From positions 372,001 through 436,000 of the forward strand of contig NZ_JACCCH010000001.1 of NCBI RefSeq assembly GCF_013410945.1: a DNA stretch of 64,000 nucleotides, in the 5' to 3' direction. The stretch is from Leifsonia sp. AK011. Lineage in GTDB: Bacteria; Actinomycetota; Actinomycetes; Actinomycetales; Microbacteriaceae. Below, in pieces: positions 35,774 through 51,292 of the stretch. Position 1 is the stretch's first letter; each line of letters opens with the position of its first letter. Under the pieces are notes generated by a model. That model was not told the origin of the DNA and searched no databases. It worked only from the letters and a program-made list of their open reading frames with translations. A program made the position numbers and the translations under genes.

Positions 35774-36817
35774 GTGGCCGAGGCAGGCGTTGTCGTTGAG
35801 GCATCGGATGCAGAGCTCACCGAGCGCATCCGATCCGGTGATACGCGCGCGTTCGCGGAACTGTGGCAGCGCCACTACCGCCCCGCGTATCGAGCGGCGA
35901 TGCAGTTCTCCCGCATCATGGAACCCGACGACCTTCTCTCCGAGGCGTACCTGCGCGTGTACCAGCAGCTGCTGGCCGGGCGCGGGCCGACCTCTGCCTT
36001 CCGTCCGTACCTCTATACCGTGATCCGCAACATCGCGACGACCCGGGGCACCGCCCGCACCCTCCCCACGGACCCGCTCGAGGAGGACCCGGAGGATGAA
36101 CGTACGCACGACGACCCTCTCGTGACATCCCTCGAGCGTTCCCTGACGACCCAGGCGTTCCGTTCCCTCCCCGAGCGCTGGCAGACCGTGCTCTGGTACA
36201 CGGAGATCGAGGGCATGGACCCGCACGAGGTTGCGCCCCTCCTCGGACTGTCGGCGAACGGTGTCGCCTCCCTCGCCATGCGCGCGCGGGAGGGCCTTCG
36301 CGAGGCGTGGCTCCAGGCGCACGTGCACGACGCCGGCAACTCCGCGGAGTGCGAGTGGGCCGTCTCCAAGATGGGCGGCTATGCACGGCACAACCTGAGC
36401 GCGCGCGACAGCGCTCGCATCGAGAGGCACCTCGACAACTGCACGAAGTGCCTGCTCGTCGCCTCGGAGGTCGAGGAGGTCGGGTCGCGGCTCGCCCTCG
36501 TACTCATCCCGCTGGCCCTCGGCGGTGTTGCGGGAGCCGGCTACCTTCAAGCACTGTCGCAGCCGTCGGCCGCCGCCATGGCCGACGCGGTGATTCCCTC
36601 GCTGCCCCAGGCCGGCGAGACGGCTTCGCAGTCGGATGCCATGGCCCTCCCCCTCCTCGGAACGTACACGCTCGCCATGGTGGCGGGCCGTCGCGCCAAG
36701 GTCATTGCGATCGTTGGAGCGGTGATCCTGATCGGCAGTTTCGCGCTGGGAATCTCGCGCGCACTCGATGCTCCGCAGGAGCCGAGCACGCCCCCCACGA
36801 TCTCGACCACCCCGTAA
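35774..36817 (+). CDS. ECF sigma factor fused to an anti-sigma-like membrane tail
   Basis: A 347-residue protein from GTG 35774. Residues 1-180 are an ECF sigma factor: region 2 (AFAELWQRHYRPAYRAAMQF, then LLSEAYLRVYQQL) and region 4 (LPERWQTVLWYTEIEGMDPH, then LLGLSANGVASLAMRAREGL). It continues into a zinc anti-sigma-like motif (YARHNLSARD, then HLDNCTKC near 220-227). Two hydrophobic segments (about 243-258 and 310-327) separated by a Ser/Ala/Gln-rich stretch follow. The fusion suggests a membrane-held sigma factor that controls itself. A weak hairpin, AGAACT/AGTTCT, follows the stop. Confidence 0.9.
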   Translation: MAEAGVVVEASDAELTERIRSGDTRAFAELWQRHYRPAYRAAMQFSRIMEPDDLLSEAYLRVYQQLLAGRGPTSAFRPYLYTVIRNIATTRGTARTLPTDPLEEDPEDERTHDDPLVTSLERSLTTQAFRSLPERWQTVLWYTEIEGMDPHEVAPLLGLSANGVASLAMRAREGLREAWLQAHVHDAGNSAECEWAVSKMGGYARHNLSARDSARIERHLDNCTKCLLVASEVEEVGSRLALVLIPLALGGVAGAGYLQALSQPSAAAMADAVIPSLPQAGETASQSDAMALPLLGTYTLAMVAGRRAKVIAIVGAVILIGSFALGISRALDAPQEPSTPPTISTTP

Positions 36818-36994: not shown

Positions 36995-38233
36995 ATGCTC
37001 AAGGTGATGGTTGTGTACGGCACCCGTCCCGAGGCGATCAAGGTCGCCCCGGTCATCCGCGCCCTCGAGGCAACACCGGACATCGAGCTCGACGTGGTGG
37101 TCACGGGCCAGCATCGCTCCATGCTCGACCAGGTCAACACACTCTTCGGCATCACGCCCCGCATCGATCTCGATATCATGACCGACCGCCAGGGGCTCAC
37201 GGGCCTTGCCGCGAGGGCGCTCGAGGGCGTCGGCCGCGTCATTGCCGACGCCCGACCCGATGCGATCCTGGTGCAGGGCGACACCTCCACTGCGGCCGCC
37301 GCCGCACTGGCCGGCTACTACAGCGAGGTACCGGTCTTCCACCTCGAGGCAGGGCTGCGCTCGGGTCGCCTCGACTCGCCCTTCCCCGAGGAGGGCAACC
37401 GACGCATCGTCGGCCAGCTGGCCGACCTTCACTTCGCGCCCACCCCCACGGCGCGCGACAACCTCCTGGCCGAGGGTGTGGATCCGGCTCGCGTGGTCGT
37501 CACGGGCAACACCGTGATCGATGCACTGCTGCACGCGGTGGCGACACCGCCGGAGCTGAGCGAGGAGATCGGTCGCGTCATCCGCTCGGACCGACGCATC
37601 GTGCTGGTCACGAGCCACCGTCGGGAGTCCTGGGAGACCGGGCTTGCGTCCACCGCGCGAGCGATCGGCCGACTCGTGGATGCCCGCACCGACGTGCACG
37701 TACTGATCCCATTGCACCGCAATCCGGTCGTGCGCGAGGCGTTCGCGGAGTGGCTCCCGCCGCATGAACGCGTGACCGTCGTCGACCCGCTCGACTACCA
37801 CGAGTTCACCGCGGTCATGGCGGCAAGCCACCTCGTGCTCACCGATTCCGGCGGTGTGCAGGAGGAGGCACCGAGCCTCGGACGGCCGGTGCTGGTCACG
37901 CGCGACACGACAGAGCGTCCCGAGGGCGTCGACGCGGGTGCAGCGAAACTCGTCGGGACCGACGAGGACGTGATTCTCGCGGAGGTGACTCGCCTACTCG
38001 ACGACGAGTCGGCCTACGAGTCGATGGCGCGAGCGGTGAACCCCTACGGTGATGGCGGCGCGGCTATGCGCGTGGCCGCGGCTATCCAGGAGTTCTTCGG
38101 CATCGGGTCGAGAACGCCGGACTTCGACCCCGGGCTCGCTGTCACTCTGATGGCCGCGCAGGCGATGACGAGCGGGATCGACATCCACAGGACAAGTGTC
38201 GAGGGGAGCAGGGCCTCGGCGAGCGCCAGGTGA
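36995..38233 (+). CDS. wecB: Non-hydrolysing UDP-GlcNAc 2-epimerase WecB
   Basis: Makes UDP-ManNAc from UDP-GlcNAc for wall teichoic-like or other surface polymers. The 412-residue product carries the family landmarks VYGTRPEAIKVAPVI (about 7-21), HLEAGLRSGRLDSPFPEEGN (about 117-136), VTSHRRESWE and TDSGGVQEEAPSLGRPVLV (about 283-301). ATG 36995 opens the true homologous region. The last 40 or so residues (after EFFGIGS) extend beyond the usual end and overlap the convergent membrane-protein gene for 190 bases. Confidence 0.94.
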   Translation: MLKVMVVYGTRPEAIKVAPVIRALEATPDIELDVVVTGQHRSMLDQVNTLFGITPRIDLDIMTDRQGLTGLAARALEGVGRVIADARPDAILVQGDTSTAAAAALAGYYSEVPVFHLEAGLRSGRLDSPFPEEGNRRIVGQLADLHFAPTPTARDNLLAEGVDPARVVVTGNTVIDALLHAVATPPELSEEIGRVIRSDRRIVLVTSHRRESWETGLASTARAIGRLVDARTDVHVLIPLHRNPVVREAFAEWLPPHERVTVVDPLDYHEFTAVMAASHLVLTDSGGVQEEAPSLGRPVLVTRDTTERPEGVDAGAAKLVGTDEDVILAEVTRLLDDESAYESMARAVNPYGDGGAAMRVAAAIQEFFGIGSRTPDFDPGLAVTLMAAQAMTSGIDIHRTSVEGSRASASAR

Positions 38234-39768
38234 GGCCCGAGCAGGGTCGCCCAGAACACCAGCGCCGACCCCACCAGGAGGAAGAGGGTCGCCCAGCCGA
38301 GGCTTCGACTTCGCACAGACCCGGCCTGCGCGAAGGCCAGCGCAAGCGCGATGAGAATGCCCGCGATCTGCCCGGCGGGAATCAGCAGCGGCACCGAGTA
38401 CAGCACCTGGCTGCCCCACTGCACCGGAATCCAGCGGCGATCGTGCACGAGATCGCCGTCGGCATCGAGGCGCACATCGAGGAAGTTGCCGCGATTCTCG
38501 AGCAGGGGGGATGCCAGGGCCGCCATGCCGCGATCGGCGAGCGCCACCATCCGTTCCGGATGCGTCAGGTGGAACAGCAGCACCCGGGTGGCGCCGATCT
38601 CGGCGAACCCGTCGTCGGCCATGACCCGTGAGGCGGCGACGGATGTTCGTGCCTGCCCGCTCGCGTCGGCGAGCCCCGGATCGAGACCGAACCACTCGAG
38701 ATCCGCCTCCGGCGTGGAGCTGGACGGGAGGATGGTGAGGAAGATCGTGTCGTACACGTCGTCGGTGTGGTCGCGCGTCGAGAGCGAGGCCACCTGCGCC
38801 CCCGCAACCCCGAGCAGCAGAACGCTCGCGACGATCGCGGGCACCCGACGCGCTACCGCCCGGCCGAACGCACGCCGCCGGTCGCCGCGGAGCACGCGCC
38901 CCGTCGGCCTGGACCGCGAGCGCTCCGCGTCCCGCAATCGCGGCACCCAGAGGAGTCCGGCGACGAAGCCGGGCACGAACGCGAGACCGACCACCGACGT
39001 GCTCGCCACGAGCAGGGCGATCACGACGGCGAGCCCGAGCGCGAGGATGCCACGAGGCGGCACATCGATCGTGGTCACACGTTCCGCGTACCCACCCCAC
39101 AGGATCAGGAGCGCCACGAACGCGGCGAGCACCGACACGAGCTCGACACCCTGCAGGTCGGCAGAGACGAAGAAGTCCACGAAGGAGCTGTCGAGCAGGA
39201 GGACCAGAATGCCGCCGGCGACGACCAGCCGGAAGGCGGTCGCCCCGGGCAGGTAGCGAATGAGCGCGACGAGGAGGGCGGCCACGACGAGCGCGAGAAG
39301 GGCGCCGAGCACGCGCAGGTCGAGTCCGCCACCGAACGGGATCGAGAGCAGGCGCGCCAACCCCACGAGGAGGTAGTACGAGGAGAAGGGGGGCGCGTCG
39401 CCCGTGGGGCAGGCGAGTCCGTACCATCCGGTCTGCGACCACTGCGGATAGATCGCGAGCGCCGAGTTCGCGTCGAACGGCCGGTCGTTGCCGAGGCCGA
39501 GGCCGCAGAGCAGCCGGAAACCGTCGCCGTTGTCCCCCATACCCACGACGCTCGGTACGAACAGCCTCACGAGGAGCACGACGAGCGCGACCACACCCCC
39601 GATGATGGCGGCAGCCCACGCGCGCGGACGGTTCTCGAACTCCCCCGGTGAGATGCGCTCCATGACACGGCCGACGCCCTCGGCCAGGGTGATGCGTCGC
39701 TGGGTGCGCGTGCGCAACATGTGGCGAGCGCGGCGCGGACCTTCGGGCTGCGGCTCACTGTGCGACAT
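38044..39768 (-). CDS. Polytopic membrane protein, GT-C-like
   Basis: A 574-residue membrane protein with about ten to twelve helices. An Arg-rich cytoplasmic N-terminus and the first helix (about 50-70) lead to an external motif VGMGDNGDGFRLLCGLGLG (about 75-93). An acidic pair right after helix 1 is what GT-C glycosyltransferases and WsfD-like proteins show. A soluble loop (about 320-445) precedes the last three helices. I infer, but cannot prove, a polyprenyl-sugar-dependent transferase. It is the last gene of the exosortase operon, overlapping the lipoprotein gene by 14 bases, and its C-terminus runs 190 bases into wecB on the other strand. Confidence 0.8.
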   Translation of the reverse strand: MSHSEPQPEGPRRARHMLRTRTQRRITLAEGVGRVMERISPGEFENRPRAWAAAIIGGVVALVVLLVRLFVPSVVGMGDNGDGFRLLCGLGLGNDRPFDANSALAIYPQWSQTGWYGLACPTGDAPPFSSYYLLVGLARLLSIPFGGGLDLRVLGALLALVVAALLVALIRYLPGATAFRLVVAGGILVLLLDSSFVDFFVSADLQGVELVSVLAAFVALLILWGGYAERVTTIDVPPRGILALGLAVVIALLVASTSVVGLAFVPGFVAGLLWVPRLRDAERSRSRPTGRVLRGDRRRAFGRAVARRVPAIVASVLLLGVAGAQVASLSTRDHTDDVYDTIFLTILPSSSTPEADLEWFGLDPGLADASGQARTSVAASRVMADDGFAEIGATRVLLFHLTHPERMVALADRGMAALASPLLENRGNFLDVRLDADGDLVHDRRWIPVQWGSQVLYSVPLLIPAGQIAGILIALALAFAQAGSVRSRSLGWATLFLLVGSALVFWATLLGPHLALAEALLPSTLVLWMSIPLVIACAAIRVTASPGSKSGVLDPMPKNSWIAAATRIAAPPSP

Positions 39769-40561
39769 CGGCGTCCTCCGTCACGACACAGCGCAGCGTG
39801 AGGCCGCCGTTCGACTCGGTGTGGAGCACGCCGGAGACCCCCTCGACGGTGCGGCCCGTCAGCGTGCCCCACTCGGTCGCGGCCGGCACGCACTGCTGCA
39901 CGATCTCGAGCTCGCTGGGCTCCGACGTCTGCGGAATCCACATGTTGATGTCGCGCGAGGTGTGGGGCTCGCTGCACCGCACGTCGGCATCGCCCGTGTA
40001 GCAACGCAGCAGCGGGTCGGCGTTGCCTGACGCCGCAGCATCCCGGAACGCGGACTCGACACCCACCGGCCAGAACGCCTCTGTCTCACTGCCCACCATC
40101 ACGAGGTCGCAGCGCACCCACCGTTCGCCGGTCGCCCACTGCTCAGGAGTGGGCAGGAACGCCATCGACGAGAGTCCGTAGAGTGCCTGCCGGTCGTTCG
40201 CACCCACGTAGGCGCGCACGACCGAGCCGGAGCACGCCTGCTCCGAGATGTCGAGCCGCTCCTCCAGGGCGGGGTATCGCCCAGAGAACCGGGTGACGGA
40301 TGCCAGGTCCCCGATCATGTACGTCTCGGTCGTGTGCTCCGCCCCGCACTCGACCGTCGGGGACGTATCGCTCAGCACGGCGAAATGCTCAGGACGATCG
40401 AGGACGTGGCACTCGCCGACGGCAGGCGCCGGGTCCTCGGGCGAGGGGGTCGAGGAGAGAGGTGCGGCGCTGCACGCGGCGAGCAGGAGCACGGCGCATC
40501 CGATGACCGCGATGCGCCAGGAGCCGGGCGTCAGCGGCGTCGCCCGAGGAGGGCCAGCCAC
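39755..40561 (-). CDS. Septum_form-like lipoprotein
   Basis: A 268-residue lipoprotein from GTG 40561, with a signal peptide ending in lipobox LLAAC (Cys about residue 30). A rare CTG start at the CTGA overlap with the exosortase stop is the alternative. The body shows two imperfect Septum_form-type units: VGECHVL then VECGAEHTTETYMIGDL, and later LRCYTGDADVRCSEPHTSRD, each with paired Cys and a conserved H-x-x-E/R spacing. The family name comes from a septum-formation annotation with little biochemistry. Its place inside the exosortase operon is unusual. Confidence 0.78.
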   Translation of the reverse strand: MAGPPRATPLTPGSWRIAVIGCAVLLLAACSAAPLSSTPSPEDPAPAVGECHVLDRPEHFAVLSDTSPTVECGAEHTTETYMIGDLASVTRFSGRYPALEERLDISEQACSGSVVRAYVGANDRQALYGLSSMAFLPTPEQWATGERWVRCDLVMVGSETEAFWPVGVESAFRDAAASGNADPLLRCYTGDADVRCSEPHTSRDINMWIPQTSEPSELEIVQQCVPAATEWGTLTGRTVEGVSGVLHTESNGGLTLRCVVTEDADVAQ

Positions 40562-41130
40562 CCGCTCGGGATGGAGACCCGACCGGTGGTCGCGATGAGC
40601 AGCAGCAGCACGAGGGCGGCCGCCGAGCACAGGAGCACGAGCACCGACCCGACGTAGTGGTGCATGATCTCGAAACCCCCGCGCCCCCACAACTGCAAGG
40701 CTACGCCGACGAGCACGAAACGAGCCAGATTCGCCCCTATCGCGAGCGGGAGGGCCACGAGCAGCCCGCGGAGCACCCACGCGAGGCGGTACCGCGGAAA
40801 GAGAAGGAGAAGACCTGCCAGCACGAGCACGGGTGTGGCGAGCACGATCGACGTGCACAGGGGGGTGATGAGGAACCCGAGTACCTCGCCCGTGCCGAGC
40901 CCGATGTAGATGAGGTGCTCGTGCGAAGTCGACTGGCCGTAGGTGAAGAGGCCCATGATGAATGCGGTGAGCTTGGCCTCGACGGCGATGACGGCCGTCG
41001 AGTTGAGCGCGAGCAGGAGAGCGGATCCGAGCAGGGCGGCCGCCACGAGGAGCGACCCGCGCTGCGACACCGGGCGGGTGGCCGCCCGCCGGCCGTGCGA
41101 CGTTGCTCGTGTCTCCGTCGTCGCGGTCAT
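40531..41130 (-). CDS. Exosortase/archaeosortase-family transpeptidase
   Basis: A 199-residue, six-helix membrane protein with the exosortase active-site set: Cys92 in PLCTSIVLATP, Arg137 in the NxxR motif of GANLARF, and His157/His158 in FEIMHHYVG. Exosortases are membrane proteases/transpeptidases that process C-terminal tripartite sorting signals on exported proteins. It is compact compared with the 250-500 residues of proteobacterial EpsH-type enzymes and similar in size to actinobacterial forms. It overlaps the GT2 gene by ATGA and the lipoprotein gene by 31 bases. The likely substrate is encoded at 42748-44043. Confidence 0.88.
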   Translation of the reverse strand: MTATTETRATSHGRRAATRPVSQRGSLLVAAALLGSALLLALNSTAVIAVEAKLTAFIMGLFTYGQSTSHEHLIYIGLGTGEVLGFLITPLCTSIVLATPVLVLAGLLLLFPRYRLAWVLRGLLVALPLAIGANLARFVLVGVALQLWGRGGFEIMHHYVGSVLVLLCSAAALVLLLLIATTGRVSIPSGWLALLGRRR

Positions 41131-42488
41131 GTCTCCCTCGCTACGAGTCGCAGGTTGTCGCGCTCGGCGTTGCGCCGCGTCTTCGTCCAGTTGTCCTTGC
41201 CGAGAACGAGGCGCGTGAGCGCCCGCACGACAGAGATGTAGGTCTGGTACATGTACAGCCAGTAGCCGAACGCCCAGCCGATGGCGGCGCCGATGCTCGC
41301 CTCACGCGCGACCTGCTGGCGGTAGATGATCGCCCAGATGCCGAAGGGCGCGATGCCCGTCACGAGGATGAGCGGAATCAACCACCACGCCTGGGCGAGG
41401 AACAGCGCGAAGCTGCCGGCGTAGAGGGTTCCGGATGCCACCATCGCGATGAACGCGGCGGGCCAGAGCACGATCCCCGCAAGCTGGATGAAGGGGAGCA
41501 ACAGGAAGTAGGTCGCCTCGAGGGATCCCGCATTGGTGAAGTTCTCGGACCGGAAGATGCTCGGCAGGTAGCGTGCACACTGCATGCCGCCCTGGCACCA
41601 GCGAACTCGCTGGGTCAGCAGACGGCGAGTGGATGGCAGGGCCTCCTGTTCCACGTGGGTGTCGTGCATGTACGTGTTCTGGTAGCCGGCCAGCACGACG
41701 TGGACACCCAGCTCGTAGTCTTCGAGGAGCGAGCCGTGCCAGGGGTTGCCCGACATCTCCGACACCCTGTCGAGCGCGGACAGCCGGCTGAACTGCCCGT
41801 TGCCGCCGAGTCCGACCGAGAAGGTGCGGAGTCGCAGGCACTGCATCGCGGCGATGGTCGTGCGGAACTCGATGTCCTGCATCCTGACGAGGTAGCGACC
41901 CCACGCCTGGCGGAGGCGCGAGTGCTCTCCGTCGAGGGGGGTCGCGTCGTCCCGGTTGCTCATCCAGACCGCGGCCTGCGCAGCACCGATGGCCGGGTTG
42001 GCGAAGGCCCGAGGCCCTGCCGCTTGGTGGAAGGCGTTCGGTGCGAGACGACCGTCAGCATCCACCACGGCCACGACCGTGTGGCTGCGATCGGCGTCAC
42101 GCGGCAGCCACCGGCTCAGAACGCGGTACGCCTCGTTGAGTGCGGCACCCTTGCCCTGGCGGGCATGGGGCCGGTGGCGGCGCACGAGATGCACGAAGGG
42201 GTCAGACGCCGCAGCTGACTCCACGATCGAGGCTGTCGAGTCGTCGCTCGCATCGTCGATCACCCAGACGTGCACCGACGGGAAGCTCGTGCGGAGACGC
42301 TCGATCGTCGCCCCGATGACGGTCTCCTCGTCGCGGCACGGCACGAAGACGTGCCATCCGAACTGACCGGGGTCGCCCTCCGGGTCCTTCTGGCGCCGGA
42401 GGAACGGAACGAGGATGAGCAGTACGTACGCGAGGAACATCACGAGCAGCACGAAGGCGAGTGCCTGTGCGGATTCGCTGGCTGGCAT
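41127..42488 (-). CDS. GT2-family membrane glycosyltransferase
   Basis: A 453-residue processive-type GT2 enzyme. An N-terminal helix (about 10-30) precedes the GT-A domain with Asp78-Asp79 in VIDDASDDST, the DxD at 143-145 (VVDADGRL), catalytic ED at 256-257 (LLEDYELG) and QRVRW at 293-297. Three C-terminal helices follow, as in BcsA and chitin/hyaluronan synthase-like proteins. No PilZ domain is present. It is translated with the exosortase gene (ATGA overlap). It could build an exopolymer that is attached to, or exported with, the sorted protein. Confidence 0.9.
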   Translation of the reverse strand: MPASESAQALAFVLLVMFLAYVLLILVPFLRRQKDPEGDPGQFGWHVFVPCRDEETVIGATIERLRTSFPSVHVWVIDDASDDSTASIVESAAASDPFVHLVRRHRPHARQGKGAALNEAYRVLSRWLPRDADRSHTVVAVVDADGRLAPNAFHQAAGPRAFANPAIGAAQAAVWMSNRDDATPLDGEHSRLRQAWGRYLVRMQDIEFRTTIAAMQCLRLRTFSVGLGGNGQFSRLSALDRVSEMSGNPWHGSLLEDYELGVHVVLAGYQNTYMHDTHVEQEALPSTRRLLTQRVRWCQGGMQCARYLPSIFRSENFTNAGSLEATYFLLLPFIQLAGIVLWPAAFIAMVASGTLYAGSFALFLAQAWWLIPLILVTGIAPFGIWAIIYRQQVAREASIGAAIGWAFGYWLYMYQTYISVVRALTRLVLGKDNWTKTRRNAERDNLRLVARET

Positions 42489-42505
42489 TCCTGCATCCCC
42501 TCCCC

Positions 42506-42541
42506 GATGATCCCAGCCGGCCCGATCCGGCCGGGATCATC
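42506..42541. promoter_or_regulatory. Intercistronic hairpin before the GT2 gene
   Basis: GATGATCCCAGCCGG (42506-42520) pairs with CCGGCCGGGATCATC (42527-42541) at 14 of 15 positions around a 6-base loop, between the 54-residue peptide gene and the GT2 gene. With no U-tract it is more likely a processing or attenuation site than a full terminator. Confidence 0.6.
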
Positions 42542-42568
42542 CCCACTGTGAGCTTGCGTGTTCTGTTG

Positions 42569-42733
42569 TCAGGCGTGACGTGGTGCCCGCCGTGCGCGGC
42601 TGCGCATGGCGACCCGCACCAGGAGGAACCCCAGGACGAGCACCGCGATGGCGATCACGAAGTACCACCCGAAGGGCAGAGCTAGACCGGTTGCGGCGAG
42701 GCCGCCTCCGATGGGTCCGTAGTTTCCACTCAT
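42569..42733 (-). CDS. 54-residue peptide consisting of a LAATG sorting signal
   Basis: A short gene between the surface protein and the GT2 enzyme. ATG 42733 is preceded by AGAGGA. The product has 11 polar/Gly residues, LAATG at 12-16, a membrane segment (about residues 20-40) and a basic tail with RSRARRAPRH. This is the layout of a LAxTG sortase signal, with almost no protein in front of it and no signal peptide. It lies 14 bases past the surface-protein stop, so it is co-transcribed. It might be a minimal anchored peptide, a chaperone-like subunit of the exosortase machinery, or just a small membrane protein. Confidence 0.75.
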   Translation of the reverse strand: MSGNYGPIGGGLAATGLALPFGWYFVIAIAVLVLGFLLVRVAMRSRARRAPRHA

Positions 42734-42747
42734 GTCGGCTCGTCCTC

Positions 42748-44043
42748 TCAGCTCGCGGCCGCGGTGCGGCGACGACTGGCGAGCACGATGACCGCGCCCA
42801 GGGCCGCGGCACCGAGGATGCCGCCCGCGATGAGCAGGCTCTCCGGGTTGGCGACGGGGACGCCCTCGATGCCGGCATTGGGACCGACGGTCGCGTTGGC
42901 CAGGGCGATCTCCGCGATCGAGCCCTCGGTGCCGAGGCCGATCGTGAGGGCGTTCTGGGTGAACGAGCCGTCCGGGTTGGTCGTCTTGTTGTTGACGTTC
43001 AGTTGGGCCACTGCGTCGATCGCGTCACCGAGGGGACCACCGAGGTCGGCGGCGAGATCGGAGAGGATCGGCGTGATGAGGCCGTTTGCGATGTCGATCG
43101 CCGCCTGGAGCGCGATGCCCACGAGCGGGAAGGTCGCGACGAGAGCCGATACCTCGGTGAGGGTGTCGTTGACGATGTTCGTGAGTTTTGTCACGATGGC
43201 TTCCGGCAGGTACTGGAGGAGGTTGGTGCCCTCAGGCAGGTCCTGCAGGCTCGCGACGCCAGCTTCGGCGAGCAGCTCATCGAGGGTGATCTCGATCGTC
43301 CCGCCCGGCGTGATCGGGTTCTCAACCTCGACGCCGGTCAGCGTCTGAACTGTGCCGAGGAGGGTCGTGAGCACCGGGGACAGCTCGCCGAGCGTGCCAT
43401 CGAGCACGGTCCCGCCGGTTCCGACTGTCAGGCCGGCGATCGTGTAGTCACCCGAAGGAGCGGCGCCACCCGACGGCTGCTGAGCACTTGCCGCGACGGC
43501 GCCGATACCGATGTTGAGGTTGACAAGGTCGGTGCCGCCGAGGAGAGCGGCAGAGCCGACCTCGATGCTGGCCGAGTCGCCGGCACCCGGCGTACCCAGG
43601 TTGCTGCCGGTCGGTGTTGTGTCGCTACCAAGAAGGCTGGGCGCGGTGCTGACCGTGCCGGAGAAGGCGACGGATGATCCGTCCGGGCGTGCCTCCGCGT
43701 ACTGGCCGACCGCCCCGAGCTGGAGGAATCCGGAGTCGCCGAAGACGTCGATGCCCGGGGCGATCTGGATGTTCAGCGCACCGAGGGCCGTGGCGTCCAG
43801 CGGCACGTCGGCGACGACGGTCGGCCCGCCGTCGGTGTTCACGGCGGTGGCACCGGCGAGCGTGAGCAGCCCGTCGATGGGCTCACCGCCGAGCGTCGCG
43901 GTGAGCAACCGACCCTCGCCCTGCGAGACGACTGGCGCTGCGGATGCTGCAGAAGGCAACACAAGAACGGCGGCTGTGCCAAGCGCGATTGCGGCGAAGG
44001 CACCGGTTCGAAGGGTGCGAGAACGGACGGCGAAACTATTCAT
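42748..44043 (-). CDS. Secreted surface protein with exosortase-type C-terminus
   Basis: A 431-residue exported protein from ATG 44043, preceded by AAGGAT. The signal peptide is cleaved near ASA-A at residue 35. The body is Gly/Ala/Leu/Thr-rich with a regular beta-like pattern and few charged residues. It ends with a tripartite signal: NPES at 399-402, a hydrophobic stretch and ASRRRTAAAS. The whole resembles the actinobacterial choice-of-anchor families (G type, from memory). The tail lacks LPxTG, so the exosortase in the same operon is the natural processing enzyme. It is divergent from the pilin gene. Confidence 0.82.
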   Translation of the reverse strand: MNSFAVRSRTLRTGAFAAIALGTAAVLVLPSAASAAPVVSQGEGRLLTATLGGEPIDGLLTLAGATAVNTDGGPTVVADVPLDATALGALNIQIAPGIDVFGDSGFLQLGAVGQYAEARPDGSSVAFSGTVSTAPSLLGSDTTPTGSNLGTPGAGDSASIEVGSAALLGGTDLVNLNIGIGAVAASAQQPSGGAAPSGDYTIAGLTVGTGGTVLDGTLGELSPVLTTLLGTVQTLTGVEVENPITPGGTIEITLDELLAEAGVASLQDLPEGTNLLQYLPEAIVTKLTNIVNDTLTEVSALVATFPLVGIALQAAIDIANGLITPILSDLAADLGGPLGDAIDAVAQLNVNNKTTNPDGSFTQNALTIGLGTEGSIAEIALANATVGPNAGIEGVPVANPESLLIAGGILGAAALGAVIVLASRRRTAAAS

Positions 44044-44379: not shown

Positions 44380-44589
44380 ATGTTCACCTACATCGCAGCA
44401 TCCATCTCATCCATCGGTCGCCGTCTCTCGCGCGAGGAGGAGGGTGCGACGGCCGTCGAGTACGGGCTCATCGTGGGCCTCATCGCCGTCGCCCTCATCG
44501 TCGCCGTCGGTGCACTCACCGGCGGATTGCAGAACATGTTCTCCGGTATCGGCGACATGCTGACCAACAACGCTCCACCGAGTGACTAA
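44380..44589 (+). CDS. flp: Flp-type pilin
   Basis: A 69-residue major pilin subunit of a Tad pilus. The leader ends REEEG-ATAVEYGLI, so a TadV/CpaA-type prepilin peptidase should cut after Gly22 and leave Glu at mature position +5. A hydrophobic helix follows (about 28-48), with a short polar end. ATG 44380 follows GGGGAG. It is the first gene of the plus-strand pilus operon. Confidence 0.95.
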   Translation: MFTYIAASISSIGRRLSREEEGATAVEYGLIVGLIAVALIVAVGALTGGLQNMFSGIGDMLTNNAPPSD

Positions 44590-44625
44590 CCGGGGTCCAT
44601 CGTTCACCGCCTCCTCTCGCAGCAC

Positions 44626-45021
44626 GTGAAGCGCTTACGGGAGACTTCGGAACTCGGCGCTGCGGCTGTCGAGTTCGCGCTCGTCCTGCCCGTGTTGTTG
44701 GTATTACTCCTCGGGATCGTCGAGTTCGGCACGGCCTTCAATGCGCAGATCCTTTTGACCAACGCCGCGCGCGAAGCGGCCAGGAGCATGACTCTCTCGG
44801 GCGATGAGACCGAGGCCGTCGCGGCGGCCGACGCGGCGACGCAACCGATCGGCCTCACCGTCACCGAAGCGGATGTCACGTTCACCGTGTCCCCCGCGGG
44901 ACCATGCGTCAGCCCGGCCAGGCTGAGCGTCGACGTCACGGTGGAGAAACCGCTTCTGACCGGCCTTTTCGGCGCCACTATTCCACTCACGGGAAAGGCG
45001 ACACGACAGTGCGGCGGCTGA
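44626..45021 (+). CDS. tadE: TadE-like minor pilin
   Basis: A 131-residue pseudopilin. The N-terminal TadE signature GAAAVEFALVLPVLLVLLLG (about 11-30) and a small outward domain with a Cys pair (GPC and QCGG) fit the TadE family. The start is GTG 44626. Its end overlaps the TadG-like gene by 13 bases. TadE and TadF/TadG proteins are thought to help initiate or shape Flp pili. Confidence 0.9.
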   Translation: MKRLRETSELGAAAVEFALVLPVLLVLLLGIVEFGTAFNAQILLTNAAREAARSMTLSGDETEAVAAADAATQPIGLTVTEADVTFTVSPAGPCVSPARLSVDVTVEKPLLTGLFGATIPLTGKATRQCGG

Positions 45022-46130
45022 TCGGGGAACTCCGTCACAACGAGGAGGGTGCGAGCGCCATCTTCGTCGCGATGACCATGACGATCGTGCTCATCGTGGC
45101 CGCCCTCGTGATCGACGTCGGCGCTGCAACGGCGCGCAACTCGCAGCTCCAGGATGCCGCGGATGCCGCGGCCCTCGCCCTCGCGCAGCAGTGCTACGAG
45201 TCCCCCGCCACCACGGTGCTGAACGGCTGTGACCCGGTGGTGCGCTCGAGCTCCGCGTCGACCGCCACCGAGATCGCGGTGGCCACCCTCAACGACGGGG
45301 CCGCGGAACTCGTGGGCGCCCCGGTGTTCGACGCGAACACGGTGACCGTGCAGCTGCTGAGCGTGCAGCCGGCGCTGTTCTCGTGGGCAGCGGGCGAGGG
45401 CGACACGACCGTGGGTGCGAGCGCCGTCGCACAGTGGAACCCGGCCGCGGTCGCGCTGCCGCTGGCGATCAATGCCTGCACGCTCCCCGACCCGGGCACG
45501 GACACGGTGTTCATCGGAACGGGGGCGTACGACGGCGTCGACACGCTTCTGTCGTCCATCACCAGCCTGCTGACGGGAACCTCGGTACCCGACTACGTCG
45601 GGAACATCCTGACCTGCGGTACGAATGTGCTCGCAGGCGGGTGGCTCGGCGATGCCGACGAGGAATGCACCTTCGACCCGAACGTGAAGACCTACGTGGT
45701 GAGCACGCTCAACAAGCTCGTACCGGTCAGCGCGTGCGTTCCCGTCATCCAGACCCTCATCGGCAAGCGGGTCATCGTGCCCGTCTACGACAACGCCACG
45801 TCAACCGTCGTCGATTCGCTGCTCGGCAACGTCACGATCGTTGGGTACGCCGAGATCGTAGTGACCGGCTACGACTTCGATGGGCTTGCCGCCATCGGCG
45901 ACGACGACCTCGTGTCGTTCCCCAGCGGCACCGACCCGGGGTGCAGTGGTTCCGTGCAGGACTTCCTCGGGGTTGACCTCGGAATCGTAGGGAGTCTCCT
46001 CGATCCGCTGTTCGACCAGCTCCTCCCGACCGTGCTGGCCTGCCAGGGCCTCCAGGGCCAGCTGGTCGACGACAGCCTGACCGCTGAAGAAGCCAGCGCC
46101 GCCCTGATCCCCTACCGCCTTGTCGCCTGA
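45009..46130 (+). CDS. TadG-like pilus-assembly protein
   Basis: A 373-residue protein from GTG 45009. The N-terminal TadE/TadG-like motif EEGASAIFVAMTMTIVLIVA (about 12-31) is followed by NSQLQDAADAAALALAQQC, the standard TadG-like N-terminus. The outward part (about 60-373) has several Cys and long hydrophobic strands but no vWA domain, unlike full TadG proteins. It overlaps tadE. It probably sits in the membrane at the pilus base or is incorporated as a minor subunit. Confidence 0.85.
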   Translation: MRRLIGELRHNEEGASAIFVAMTMTIVLIVAALVIDVGAATARNSQLQDAADAAALALAQQCYESPATTVLNGCDPVVRSSSASTATEIAVATLNDGAAELVGAPVFDANTVTVQLLSVQPALFSWAAGEGDTTVGASAVAQWNPAAVALPLAINACTLPDPGTDTVFIGTGAYDGVDTLLSSITSLLTGTSVPDYVGNILTCGTNVLAGGWLGDADEECTFDPNVKTYVVSTLNKLVPVSACVPVIQTLIGKRVIVPVYDNATSTVVDSLLGNVTIVGYAEIVVTGYDFDGLAAIGDDDLVSFPSGTDPGCSGSVQDFLGVDLGIVGSLLDPLFDQLLPTVLACQGLQGQLVDDSLTAEEASAALIPYRLVA

Positions 46131-46154
46131 CCGCCGCCACAACAGAAAGTCCTG

Positions 46155-46883
46155 ATGAGAACTCGAATCGTAGCCCTCGTGATCGCCGTAGTCCTGGCTG
46201 TTGTCGGAGGCGTGCTCCTGGTCAGCTATGTGCGCGGTGCCGACCAGCGAGCCTCCGAGGGGGCGGAACTGACGCCCGTCCTCGTCGTGACAACCGAGGT
46301 GCCCCGCGGTGCCACGGCCAAGCAGCTCGAGCTGTTCGTCGAGGAGCGGTCGGTGCCCGCAGCATTCCTCGCCGAGGGCGCGATCACAAGCCTCGATGAG
46401 CTGGCCGATCTCGGCGACCTCGTGACGACGGCAGCACTCGTGCCGGGCGAGCAGGTCGTGCGCGAGCGTTTCGACACGGCAGAGTCGTTCGTCGACCGCG
46501 GCGGTTCCGTTCTCATCCCCGAGGGACTCCAGGAGGTCTCGGTTTCGCTGGATGCACCGCGCGTCCTCGACGGAAGACTCAGTCCCGGCGACACCGTGGG
46601 CATCTTCGTGAGCGTCGAGGGCGACGGGACCGCTCCGCGGCAGACTCGTCCGCTGCTCGAGAAAGTGCTCGTCACTGCGGTCTCGGGCGGCACCGCGGTC
46701 GCGGAGGATGGCACGATCACGGGCGCGCAGGGCACGGTCACAGTGACTGTCGCGGTCTCGGAACGCGACGCGCAGGCGATCATCTACGCCCGCGAGTACG
46801 CGCAGCTCTGGTTCACGAAGCAGGACCCCGACACCACGCCCAGCGGCCGCACACCCTTCACCATCCAGGAACTCCTCACGTGA
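46155..46883 (+). CDS. cpaB: CpaB/RcpC-like pilus protein with SAF domain
   Basis: A 242-residue protein. It has an N-terminal membrane helix (about 6-24), then a SAF-like domain (LVVTTEVPRGATAKQLELFV, about 43-62) and an RcpC/CpaB core (VSVSLDAPRVLDGRLSPGDT, about 128-147). In Gram-negatives this stabilises the secretin. In actinobacteria, which have no outer membrane, it probably guides the pilus through the wall. It overlaps the next gene by 4 bases. Confidence 0.9.
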   Translation: MRTRIVALVIAVVLAVVGGVLLVSYVRGADQRASEGAELTPVLVVTTEVPRGATAKQLELFVEERSVPAAFLAEGAITSLDELADLGDLVTTAALVPGEQVVRERFDTAESFVDRGGSVLIPEGLQEVSVSLDAPRVLDGRLSPGDTVGIFVSVEGDGTAPRQTRPLLEKVLVTAVSGGTAVAEDGTITGAQGTVTVTVAVSERDAQAIIYAREYAQLWFTKQDPDTTPSGRTPFTIQELLT

Positions 46884-48025
46884 CGCGCGTCGTGCTCATC
46901 GGACCGGACAGCTCGCTCGAGGACCAGGCGCGGCTGCTCCTCGGCGACCAGGTCCTGGTCATCGCACCGGCGGAGACCGGACTGCTCCTGACGCGGTTGC
47001 TCCGGCTGGACGCGCGGCCCCACCTCGTGGTGTTCGGCGCCTACGTTCCGCCAGAGCAGAGCCTGGAGCTCGCGCGATCACTCCGCCTCACCGTGCCCAC
47101 GCTCGCTGTCGCGGGGAGCCGCGACGCGCTCACCGCGGAAGATACGGCCGCGGGCATAGCCTTCGTGCTCCCCCACGGGGCGGAGCTGGAGGATGTCGAC
47201 GCGCTCTTCGTGCAGGCATCCGATCGGGCCGCGCGCGCCGCCTCGCAACTCTCCTCACCCCGCGAGTTGCGACCCCGCGGCGAGATCGTGGTCGTGACCG
47301 CGCCGAAGGGCGGGGTCGGCAAGACCACGATCGCGACCAATGTCGCGCTCGTGCTCGCGGCCATCCGGCCCCACGAGGTGGTGCTCGTCGACCTCGACCT
47401 CCAGTTCGGCGATGTGGCGGAGGCCCTGGCGCTCTCGCCGCTGAACTCGATGGCCGAGGCGGTCGGGTCCGCGGCATCCCGCGACGTGCTCCTCGTCAAG
47501 CACACTCTCACCATGCACTCGAGCGGGCTGCTGGTCCTCGCGGCGCCACCCTCCCCCGTGCACGCGGATCGCATCAGCGCAACGGATGTCGCGATCGTGC
47601 TGCGCCAGCTCGCCCAGGAGTACGCGTACGTGGTGGTCGACACCGCGCCGGGACTGTCGGAGCACACGCTTGCGGCCATCGACGAAGCATCCCAGGTCAT
47701 CACGGTCACGAGCCCCGACGTCACGAGCATCAACGGACTGTCGAAGGAACTCGTGGTGCTGCGTGAGCTCGGGATGCTTCCTACCCCGCACCATCTCGTG
47801 CTCAACATGGCCGACCGCTGGTCGGCTCGCGTGAGCGACATCGAGTCCTCGCTGGGTGAGTCGGTGTCGCTCTCGGTCCCGCGCTCGAACGCGGTCGGGC
47901 GCTCGACCAACCGCGGGGTCCCCGTCGTGCTCGACAGCCCCCGCGACAGGGCGTCGGCCCAGCTGCGAGTGCTGGGCAAGCGCATCGATACCGAGCAGAC
48001 CCCCCGCCGAAAGGATGCCCGATGA
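46880..48025 (+). CDS. CpaE/TadZ-like pilus localisation ATPase
   Basis: A 381-residue MinD/ParA-type ATPase from GTG 46880, with an atypical receiver-like N-terminal domain (1-125) and the deviant Walker A KGGVGKTT at 143-150 within VVVTAPKGGVG. Walker A' VDLDLQFGD and switch VVVDTAPGLSEHTLAAI are also present. Such proteins position the Tad machine in the cell. The gene overlaps its neighbours by 4 bases on both sides. Confidence 0.92.
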   Translation: MTRVVLIGPDSSLEDQARLLLGDQVLVIAPAETGLLLTRLLRLDARPHLVVFGAYVPPEQSLELARSLRLTVPTLAVAGSRDALTAEDTAAGIAFVLPHGAELEDVDALFVQASDRAARAASQLSSPRELRPRGEIVVVTAPKGGVGKTTIATNVALVLAAIRPHEVVLVDLDLQFGDVAEALALSPLNSMAEAVGSAASRDVLLVKHTLTMHSSGLLVLAAPPSPVHADRISATDVAIVLRQLAQEYAYVVVDTAPGLSEHTLAAIDEASQVITVTSPDVTSINGLSKELVVLRELGMLPTPHHLVLNMADRWSARVSDIESSLGESVSLSVPRSNAVGRSTNRGVPVVLDSPRDRASAQLRVLGKRIDTEQTPRRKDAR

Positions 48026-49533
48026 GCCTCTCCGACCGCCTGGATGCCGCGCGCAATCGCCGACAGCCTGCACCTCTCGTCGAGCCCCCCGCCGCATCCC
48101 CTCCACTGCCCACGTGGCCGATCACGCCTCCGCCTGCCGTGCCCACGGCGTTCGCACCGCCTCCGACCGCGCCCGCACCACCGGAACCAGCGCCGGTTGC
48201 GGCAGCACCGGAAAGCGCGGAGCCGCAGGAGTCGCCCGAGTACGTCGCCCTGCGCCAGCAGATCTCCGACGTGCTCACCGACCGGATCGGCACCCGCATC
48301 AACGACGCGCGGCTGAGCGAGCAGGAGCTCGACGCCGCAGTGCGCCGCGAACTCGCCTCGATCATCGACGAACGCGGCGCGCGCCTGACCGAGCAGGAGC
48401 GCATCAGCCTCATCCGCGAGCTGGCGGACGAGGCGCTCGGGCTGGGGCCACTCCAGGCGCTGCTCGATGACCCCACCGTGAGCGAGATCATGGTGAACGG
48501 CCCTGACCACGTCTACGTCGAGCGCCGTGGTCGCATCCAGCGTGTGTCGACGAGCTTCCGCTCCGAGGATCGCCTTCGCCGGGTGATCGAGCGTATCGTC
48601 TCCCGCGTGGGGCGCCGCATCGACGAGTCATCCCCCCTCGTCGATGCCCGACTGTCCGACGGTTCGCGCGTGAACGCGATCATCCCGCCTCTCGCCGTGA
48701 GTGGGCCGTCCCTCACGATCCGCAAGTTCGCGGTTGATCCGTACAAAGCCGGCGACATGGTCGAGCTCGGAACCCTGAGCGACTCCATGGTCGACCTTCT
48801 GCGCGCGTGCGTTCGCGCGCGCCTCAACATCATCGTCTCGGGCGGCACGGGCACCGGCAAGACGACCCTCCTCAACGTGCTCTCCTCGTTCATCCCACCG
48901 GACGAGCGCATCGTCACGATCGAGGACTCCGTCGAGCTGCAGCTGCAGCAGGAGCACGTGGTCCGCCTCGAGAGCCGCCCGTCGAACCTCGAGGGGCGCG
49001 GCGAGATCACCATCCGCGACCTCGTGCGCAACTCGCTGCGCATGCGTCCCGATCGCATCGTCGTCGGCGAGTGCCGCGGCGGCGAGACCCTGGACATGCT
49101 GCAGTCGATGAACACCGGTCACGACGGTTCGCTCTCCACCATCCACGCCAACTCACCCCGAGACGCGATCGCACGCCTGGAGACGCTCGCGCTCATGGCC
49201 GGCATGGACCTGCCCCACCGCGCGATCCGCGAGCAGATCGCCTCCGCGGTCGACGTCATCATCCACATCACGCGTCTTCGGGATGGCACGCGCCGGGTGA
49301 CCCACATCACCGAGGTTCTCGGCATGGAGAACGACATCATCACGATGCAGGACGTCTACCGGTTCGACTTCTCGGCGGGCGTGGACTCGTCCGGACGGTT
49401 CCTCGGGACCTCGCAGCCCACCGGCATCCGACCGCGATTCCTCTCGCGCTTCGAGGAGGTCGGTGTGCCGTTCAACCCCGCAGCCTTCATCGCGGCACCC
49501 GTGGAGCCAGGACAGACGCAGGGGTGGCAATGA
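48022..49533 (+). CDS. tadA: TadA/CpaF-type pilus assembly ATPase
   Basis: A 503-residue hexameric secretion ATPase. A Pro/Ala-rich N-terminus (about 15-70) leads into the T2SSE core: IMVNGPDHVYVERRGRIQ, Walker A GGTGTGKTT at about 273-281, EDSVELQLQQEHVVRLESRP (Asp box), Walker B RMRPDRIVVGE and the His box TGHDGSLSTIHA. It powers Flp assembly with the TadB/TadC membrane platform encoded next. Overlap with the next gene is ATGA. Confidence 0.96.
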   Translation: MSLSDRLDAARNRRQPAPLVEPPAASPPLPTWPITPPPAVPTAFAPPPTAPAPPEPAPVAAAPESAEPQESPEYVALRQQISDVLTDRIGTRINDARLSEQELDAAVRRELASIIDERGARLTEQERISLIRELADEALGLGPLQALLDDPTVSEIMVNGPDHVYVERRGRIQRVSTSFRSEDRLRRVIERIVSRVGRRIDESSPLVDARLSDGSRVNAIIPPLAVSGPSLTIRKFAVDPYKAGDMVELGTLSDSMVDLLRACVRARLNIIVSGGTGTGKTTLLNVLSSFIPPDERIVTIEDSVELQLQQEHVVRLESRPSNLEGRGEITIRDLVRNSLRMRPDRIVVGECRGGETLDMLQSMNTGHDGSLSTIHANSPRDAIARLETLALMAGMDLPHRAIREQIASAVDVIIHITRLRDGTRRVTHITEVLGMENDIITMQDVYRFDFSAGVDSSGRFLGTSQPTGIRPRFLSRFEEVGVPFNPAAFIAAPVEPGQTQGWQ

Positions 49534-50453
49534 CTCCGATCCTCCTGGGCCTCCTGCTGCTCTTCGTCGCGGTCGGCGTCGTCGTGTTCGTGGTGGCAGC
49601 GCCACGCTCGACGACCGGCGATCACGCAGCGGATCGCCTGCGCGAGTGGGGCAGGGTCGCGTCCGCCCGCGCGGATGTCGCGGTCAAGCGGAGCGGGTCG
49701 GGCGTTGTCGGCATGGTGGAGCTCGCTGGCATCCATCTGAGCGCTGGCGCCGTCGTGCTCCTGATCTCTGTCGCCGCCGCCGGAGCCGCCGTGCTCGGGA
49801 TGATCGTGGCGCTGAGCCGCCCGTCACTCATCGCCTGGCTCCTCCCCGTGCTCCTTCCGGTCGTCGTGCTCGTGGTCGCGCGACTGCTGCTCACGCACAG
49901 GATCGACAAGCGCCGCCAGGCCTTCAGCGAGCAACTCGAGGGCACCCTGCAGTTGCTCGCGAGCGGGCTCCGGGCCGGCCACAGCCTCCAGCGCGCCGTC
50001 GACTCGGTCAGCACGGACTCGGCGAGCCCGACAGCCGAGGAGTTCACGCGCGTCGTCAACGAGCACCGGCTCGGGCGCCCGCTGAGCGACGCGATGCTAG
50101 CCGTCGCAACCCGGATGCAGAGCGACGACCTCGCGTGGACTGCGCAGGCCGTCGCCATCCATCGTGAGGTCGGTGGCAACCTCAGCGAGGTGCTCGACCA
50201 CGTGGCTGAGACGATCCGCGAGCGCCAGCAGATCAGGCGGCAGGTCGCGACACTCAGCTCCGAGGGCCGCGTCTCGGCGATCGTGCTCATGGCACTGCCC
50301 GTGGGAATCGCGCTGCTCCTCAGCGTGCTCTCCCCCGGCTACCTCGCCCTCTTCGTCACGACCCCGATCGGGTTCCTGCTGCTCGGCGTGTGCCTGGTGC
50401 TCTTCATCGTCGGCAGCCTGTGGTTGCGCGCCATCACGAGGATCCGGTTCTGA
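49530..50453 (+). CDS. tadB: TadB-like pilus membrane platform protein
   Basis: A 307-residue membrane protein. It begins at ATG 49530, shares ATGA with tadA, and has two N-terminal helix pairs, a T2SSF cytoplasmic domain (FSEQLEGTLQLLASGLRAGH, about 131-150) and two final helices. Its partner, TadC, follows 2 bases later. Confidence 0.93.
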   Translation: MTPILLGLLLLFVAVGVVVFVVAAPRSTTGDHAADRLREWGRVASARADVAVKRSGSGVVGMVELAGIHLSAGAVVLLISVAAAGAAVLGMIVALSRPSLIAWLLPVLLPVVVLVVARLLLTHRIDKRRQAFSEQLEGTLQLLASGLRAGHSLQRAVDSVSTDSASPTAEEFTRVVNEHRLGRPLSDAMLAVATRMQSDDLAWTAQAVAIHREVGGNLSEVLDHVAETIRERQQIRRQVATLSSEGRVSAIVLMALPVGIALLLSVLSPGYLALFVTTPIGFLLLGVCLVLFIVGSLWLRAITRIRF

Positions 50454-50455
50454 CC

Positions 50456-51292
50456 ATGTCCTTCGCCCTCGGCATCCTCGGCCCGCTCCTCCTCGCAGCG
50501 GCGCTGCCGCTGTTCGTGCTCGCCGTGTTCCCGGGTCGCGGCACTGCAACCGCGAGCGCGCGGCCACGAGTTGCGCACACAGCGCCACCGCCGTTCGCGC
50601 CACGTGCGCTCATCCAGCGTATGGAACGCAACCTGCAGCTGGCCGGCCTCACGAACCAGTGGTCGCTGCGCACGCTCGTGATCGCCAAGCTCCTGCTCCT
50701 GCTCGCCGGTCTCGGTGTCGCTGCGCTCCTGATCTGGTGGCAGCCCTCGGCAACGATCGTGATCGTGGGCCTCGTACTTGTGGTCGGCGGCTACTTCGTG
50801 CCGGACCTCATCGTGTACGGGCGGGCCAAGGAGCGGCAGGACACCATCCAGCTCGAGCTCGCGGACACCCTCGACCAGATCCTCATCTCGGTCGAGGCCG
50901 GACTCGGGCTGGAGACGGCAATCGACCGGGCCGGCAGGCACGGGCGGGGGCCACTCGCAGCCGAACTGGCTCGCACCGTGCAGGACATGCGGGTCGGGGC
51001 ATCCCGCCGCGAGGCGTACTCGGCCCTCGCCGCCCGCACCGACGTCGTGGACCTGCAGCGGTTCGCCCGCGCGATCATGCAGGCCGACGAGTACGGCGTC
51101 TCGATCGGCCAGGTCGTGCGTACCCAGGCGAAGGACCTGCGCGCGAAGCGTCGCCAGCGAGCCGAGGAGAAGGCGATGCGCGTACCGGTGCAGGTGCTGT
51201 TCCCCCTCATGTTCTGCATCCTGCCGGTGCTCTTCATCATCGTGCTGGGGCCGGCGGCGGCCAACCTCATCCGCTCGTTCGGGGCATTGTAG
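50456..51292 (+). CDS. tadC: TadC-like pilus membrane platform protein
   Basis: A 278-residue protein of the same T2SSF fold as TadB. The conserved block LADTLDQILISVEAGLGLET (about 135-154) lies between helices and the C-terminus VQVLFPLMFCILPVLFIIVL is typical of TadC. ATG 50456 follows the tadB stop directly. It closes the visible pilus operon; no tadD, prepilin peptidase or further tad gene follows. Confidence 0.93.
   Translation: MSFALGILGPLLLAAALPLFVLAVFPGRGTATASARPRVAHTAPPPFAPRALIQRMERNLQLAGLTNQWSLRTLVIAKLLLLLAGLGVAALLIWWQPSATIVIVGLVLVVGGYFVPDLIVYGRAKERQDTIQLELADTLDQILISVEAGLGLETAIDRAGRHGRGPLAAELARTVQDMRVGASRREAYSALAARTDVVDLQRFARAIMQADEYGVSIGQVVRTQAKDLRAKRRQRAEEKAMRVPVQVLFPLMFCILPVLFIIVLGPAAANLIRSFGAL

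Follow-up and report, generated by a model that had tools for sequence, protein, structure and literature searches.

The window, that is, the whole stretch of 64,000 nucleotides analysed from the 3.0-Mb genome of Leifsonia sp. AK011, carries an exosortase locus on its minus strand. An ORF check of the window found all six minus-strand ORFs of the initial annotation, in the order described there. Overlaps occur among four of the six, and the short peptide gene is flanked by gaps of 80 and 14 bases. The wecB gene at 36998-38233 had been absent from that gene list. By profile matches, most parts of the locus are already listed in NCBIfam. The genes are as follows.

42748..44043, minus strand: secreted choice-of-anchor G protein of 431 aa with a Sec signal peptide and PVV-CTERM, the substrate (NF033766, NF051874)
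42569..42733, minus strand: mini-protein of 54 aa, predicted sortase substrate without a signal peptide (homologues at 48/49 exosortase loci)
41127..42488, minus strand: GT2 glycosyltransferase of the processive-synthase type (NF053846)
40531..41130, minus strand: exosortase of the XrtS type, 199 aa (NF033767, TIGR04178, invariant Cys/Arg/His)
39755..about 40561, minus strand: Septum_form-domain lipoprotein with a GTG start and an approximate 5' end (PF13845, lipobox LLAAC)
38044..39768, minus strand: WsfD-like polytopic GT-C glycosyltransferase (NF051875)
36998..38233, plus strand: WecB, non-hydrolysing UDP-GlcNAc 2-epimerase, convergent with the operon (TIGR00236)

Divergent from the operon is a Tad pilus locus (Flp-like, TadE, CpaB, TadZ/CpaE-like, TadA and membrane proteins; 44380-51292, plus strand), and the same Tad/exosortase arrangement is seen in Arenivirga and kin (L017/L018). 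Upstream of wecB lies a gene for an ECF-type sigma factor that has a membrane region at its C terminus (35774-36817, plus strand); L018 has a similar gene in that place.

The 199-residue protein was confirmed as an exosortase by HMM search: it passes the general exosortase signature TIGR04178 (exo_archaeo) with 33.3 bits (cut-off 23). With NF033767 (XrtS) it scored 144.4 bits as a protein, which is 0.6 bit short of the cut-off of 145, and 145 in the genome scan with its neighbours in frame, where it counted as a pass; in the exosortase tree it nests among relatives exceeding this cut-off. The PF09721 match is weak and below the gathering score (22.8 vs 25.7 bits), and PF09721 is the model of one Pfam family, not defining for the whole exosortase/archaeosortase superfamily. 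Cys92, Arg137 and His157 are the predicted catalytic residues. They are invariant in eight relatives and still invariant across 32 (alignment numbering one higher); His158, which had been proposed along with them, is not conserved. The AlphaFold (AF2) model of the exosortase is confident (mean pLDDT 90.4), helical and of membrane type. A fold search of the exosortase and substrate models against the PDB gave no match at E < 0.001, and no fold was assigned. Exosortases of this kind are rare: they were found in 9 of 200 sampled Microbacteriaceae genomes and in none of three other sampled genomes of the genus.

The substrate passes NF033766 (choice-of-anchor G; 119.6 bits, cut-off 45) and NF051874 (PVV-CTERM; 47.6 bits, cut-off 27). 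Its C-terminus consists of GVPVANP, a membrane helix and RRR, and the NPES-hydrophobic-RRR tail had been read correctly (GVPVANPESLLIAGG...SRRRTAAAS). A profile scan of the whole genome found one PVV-CTERM protein over the curated cut-off and one choice-of-anchor G protein. Because these proteins are single in the genome and the gene order is conserved (see below), one exosortase with one dedicated substrate is supported. Recognisable CTERM tails similar to that of the window are encoded at most other exosortase loci. At one of them (L127:11759-14098) three tandem paralogous substrates with tails of the form DDIPAVAP or DDIPIVAP, helix and basic residues lie beside one exosortase.

For the neighbourhood survey, 80 loci were collected through a GT2 alignment, and further ones with exosortase profiles or with the fused exosortase described below. 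The GT2-based collection biases that part of the sample toward GT2-bearing loci, and the loci found by exosortase profile serve as a check. The final table holds 51 loci with an exosortase, two of which (L143, L144) form a distant outgroup and were set aside, leaving 49; these share descent, with the Microbacterium loci near-copies, so the counts below are not independent trials. The gene order proved to be conserved in Microbacteriaceae and beyond. Neither of the two outcomes that would have spoken against the reading of the locus, failure of the exosortase models or an unconserved neighbourhood in relatives, was observed. The core comprises the exosortase, the GT2 and the mini-protein, to which most loci add a substrate with a recognisable CTERM. 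We conclude that the actinobacterial locus is genuine and self-contained, and that it serves to anchor proteins. The earlier proposal of a self-contained sorting system therefore stands for the dedicated exosortase with its own substrate and conserved order, but not for the joining to a polymer in the form proposed.

The GT2 passes NF053846 (XrtP-associated glycosyltransferase) with 615.5 bits (cut-off 520), and its motifs DAD, LEDYELG and QRVRW are invariant in the alignment. A GT2 is found nearby in 49/49 loci, and GT2s of the processive type lie beside exosortases even in loci found without using GT2. Some GT2 relatives occur without an exosortase: those of Brevibacterium, Nesterenkonia and Zimmermannella (L055, L058, L060, L061, L066, L068) lie between histidine-kinase-like and response-regulator-like genes, and three firmicute loci (L090, L094, L096) have a GT2 and a polytopic protein with no exosortase seen. 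WecB (TIGR00236, 450.9 bits, cut-off 210) likely supplies UDP-ManNAc to the GT2; wecB is within 6.5 kb of the exosortase in 39/49 loci, adjacent and co-directional in many. The lipoprotein (PF13845, Septum_form, 60 bits, cut-off 25; lipobox LLAAC) and the polytopic protein, which passes NF051875 (WsfD glycan hexose transferase, 181.1 bits, cut-off 80), occur together in 15 of the 49 loci and neither is ever found alone. On the exosortase tree the pair requires about seven changes, clustered, with repeated gain or loss. It is an optional, inseparable module. Since they are present in 15/49 loci and always paired, the GT-C and the lipoprotein cannot be core, and the suggestion that the substrate is joined to a polymer made by the GT2 and GT-C proteins is unsupported as it was put. 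The window encodes a second Septum_form-like protein at about 63418 (plus strand), which scores 109 bits with the lipoprotein profile.

After the GT2, no partner accompanies the exosortase more consistently than the mini-protein. We scanned within 3 kb for ORFs 36-105 residues long that combine xxxTG with a helix and a basic tail (a Met-Tyr start was not required). Such an ORF was found on the same strand in 45/48 exosortase loci, as against 3/48 on the opposite strand and 6/43 at GT2 loci without an exosortase. A Met-Tyr start was seen in 40/48 on the same strand, 0/48 on the opposite strand and 2/43 at the exosortase-free GT2 loci. After hand checks of the 49 loci, a mini-protein was recorded in 48 (46 free genes, in L053 a copy on the opposite strand whose motif is degenerate, and the fused copy in L130); none was found in L049. 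It is present in all of the loci found by exosortase profile rather than by GT2 (L013-L020, L123-L130, L142). In two loci from another family of the phylum (L132/L142) it is a separate gene just upstream of the exosortase and in the same frame. The divergent exosortases L143/L144 have no mini-protein at their loci, so the pairing does not extend beyond the XrtP/R/S branch. Whether the mini-protein is a partner of the GT2 instead of the exosortase was considered; loci with a GT2 alone speak against it, apart from two exceptions, the Met-Tyr mini-proteins beside the GT2 at L057:13599 and L069:9725 in genomes without a detectable exosortase. The initial annotation had found no established role for the peptide, and the literature searched gives none either; the peptide nevertheless occurs at 48 of 49 exosortase loci and carries a sortase tag.

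The mini-protein of the window reads MSGNYGPIGGG, LAATG, a membrane helix and a basic tail, and the family has the same build: an outer tail rich in Gly, a motif that is usually LAxTG, a single membrane helix and a basic tail. In a set of 35 non-redundant copies, Met-Tyr opens 31 (32 once the start of L124 is corrected), and three, that of the window among them, begin with Met-Ser-Gly. [LIVM][AP]xTG is kept in 31/35 and TG in 34/35; the tail ahead of the motif is Gly/Ala-rich and without Cys. In most mini-proteins 7-30 residues precede the predicted cut site. When L124:3051-3188 is extended upstream, about 60 residues of almost nothing but Gly lie between Met-Tyr and LPFTG. Some sortase motifs are poor, such as SVMTGG in Curtobacterium and LAAAG in S. 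shenzhenensis. Tyr is absent from the tails of the relatives L025 and L027. O-glycosylation of Tyr was considered as an explanation of the Met-Tyr start, but Met-Ser-Gly relatives that have no Tyr weaken it. NF058583 (LAXTG motif-containing small protein) gave 28 bits with the window copy (cut-off 65, not passed). It matched 15 of 32 scanned mini-proteins weakly at E < 0.001 (best 2.1e-10); the bit scores read, for the window copy and others, reach 40.8 at best, well under the cut-off. A Pfam scan found no model covering the family.

By its LPXTG-like motif, helix and basic tail, the mini-protein fits a predicted sortase substrate. One of the three sortases encoded in the window genome is of class E. 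All 17 of its readable conventional sortase substrates carry LAxTG, 10/17 as LAATG, so the LAATG of the mini-protein is the commonest sorting signal among them. In two Amycolatopsis operons a class E sortase gene (profile score 202 bits, cut-off 160) comes last, directly after exosortase, GT2, lipoprotein and WsfD (L067:13945-14634, L081:13988-14662). Sortases were found in 11 of 12 genomes tested; the twelfth genome is 66% complete. Mini-protein and substrate motifs are both of the LPxTG type in G378 and G345; in G463 and G932 the mini-proteins are LAxTG and the substrates mostly LAxTG. They disagree in G387 and G235 (in G387 the peptide has LAATG vs LPDTG in the substrates). In Gryllotalpicola, whose mini-protein is without LAxTG, no conventional LPXTG-type substrate was found at E 0.01 and there is a single sortase. 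At one locus (L130:6614-7312) the mini-protein is fused to the N terminus of the exosortase in one ORF of 233 aa (MYKPP...RLPYTG...-exosortase), which reads MYKPPVAVAPLVLGVTTSRLPYTGF-helix-RVGRR and then runs on into the exosortase. The fusion agrees with the predicted topology, in which the mini-protein would be N-out and C-in and the exosortase N terminus inside; it is known from this locus alone, in a genome 68% complete, and a stop-codon error is possible.

The sortase tag on an exosortase-paired mini-protein points to a relay between the two enzymes. The reading we prefer, though we put it at somewhat less than an even chance, is that the substrate is fixed to the wall via the mini-protein as adaptor, by the exosortase and then by a class E sortase. 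The substrate would be exported by Sec and held in the membrane by its C-terminal helix, and Cys92 of the exosortase would attack near the VPVANP motif to give an acyl-enzyme. The mini-protein would be exported N terminus first, and its exposed N-terminal end (an amine), on a flexible Gly-rich arm, is the putative acceptor. The ArtA model, which proposes an amine acceptor, is a precedent in the superfamily (PMC7157517). The housekeeping class E sortase is predicted to cut the mini-protein at LAAT|G and join it to peptidoglycan; class E sortases use LAXTG (PMC5148588). In the end a short adaptor would link the substrate to the wall. The polymer of the GT2 may surround the displayed substrate or be bound by it, and the lipoprotein and WsfD may modify the GT2 glycan in some lineages. 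More generally, actinobacterial exosortases and class E sortases may form one relay with the leaderless mini-protein as a double-ended tether, a proposal that we regard as rather doubtful. The tether is favoured by the same-strand mini-protein at 45/48 exosortases, the L130 fusion, the Amycolatopsis sortase gene and the LAATG match. Against it are the Met-Ser-Gly N terminus in the window and two relatives where most others have Met-Tyr, the poor motifs of Curtobacterium and S. shenzhenensis, the imperfect agreement with genome substrates (G387) and the Met-Tyr mini-proteins at GT2 loci without a detectable exosortase (L057, L069). In addition, the fused copy in L130 would be consumed if a sortase cuts it, and a sortase gene adjoins two loci alone.

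Two other explanations are each unlikely, to a similar degree. The exosortase may cut the substrate and hand it to the GT2 polysaccharide or a lipid-linked precursor, with the mini-protein acting elsewhere. This would suit the processive-type GT2 beside every exosortase, including the loci found without GT2, and the nucleotide sugar from wecB (39/49 loci), but it leaves the mini-protein, its conservation and its fusion to the exosortase unexplained. We also know of no exosortase-family product that is a polysaccharide linkage, which counts against such a transfer. The mini-protein itself points to peptidoglycan and a class E sortase, in place of a polysaccharide or in addition to one. Alternatively, the mini-protein may stay with the exosortase for good, as a subunit or chaperone, with an LAxTG that is vestigial or recruits a sortase without being cut, and the substrate may be lipid-anchored as with ArtA or released. 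The L130 fusion, the degenerate motifs in a few lineages and the ArtA precedent (PMC7157517) are in keeping with a subunit, but [LIVM][AP]xTG is retained in 31/35 copies and TG in 34/35, and the motif equals the sortase signal of the window genome. Less probable again is that the wall-anchored mini-protein primes the GT2 polymer or serves as its point of attachment, with the substrate attached separately: a glycan could sit on a Tyr or Ser close to the N terminus, and the Met-Tyr mini-proteins beside GT2 in two exosortase-free genomes keep a glycan reading alive, but the Met-Tyr peptide is missing at 41/43 GT2 loci without an exosortase, the tails of L025 and L027 have no Tyr, and in L130 the fusion partner of the mini-protein is the exosortase rather than the GT2.

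To our knowledge, no acceptor is known for a bacterial exosortase. If the mini-protein is a regular partner across a whole exosortase branch, the acceptor question becomes testable. The wall-fixing relay, if true, would be a new way of attaching proteins to the cell wall, would give the first defined acceptor for a bacterial exosortase, and would connect exosortase and sortase, two protein-sorting enzymes treated as separate systems. Attention is also drawn to a barely described family of genes of about 55 residues, mostly unnamed by current models.

The exosortase locus belongs to a catalogued kind. Literature searches for XrtS, PVV-CTERM and choice-of-anchor G gave nothing relevant, and no paper on the system was found. 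Among the actinobacterial exosortases S, R and P (NF033767, NF012138, NF012139), the window exosortase groups with XrtS and has in common with them the C-terminal substrate signal, the GT2 partner and the neighbourhood, whereas the mini-protein, WecB and the lipoprotein-WsfD pair are not described as parts in the papers found. The substrate passes both models of a PVV-CTERM choice-of-anchor G protein (NF051874, NF033766) with no notable difference. The small protein of NF058583, to which the mini-proteins match weakly, has a one-line family description without an exosortase link. With the Streptomyces LAXTG substrates of class E sortase (PMC5148588) the mini-protein shares LAxTG, helix and basic tail, but unlike them it is without a globular domain and a signal peptide. 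Archaeosortase ArtA (PMC7157517) is of the same superfamily as the window exosortase, with Cys/Arg/His and a proposed amine acceptor; that acceptor is an archaeal membrane lipid, whereas a wall-bound peptide is proposed here. New with respect to the sources searched is the near-universal pairing of XrtP/R/S exosortases with a sortase-tagged mini-protein.
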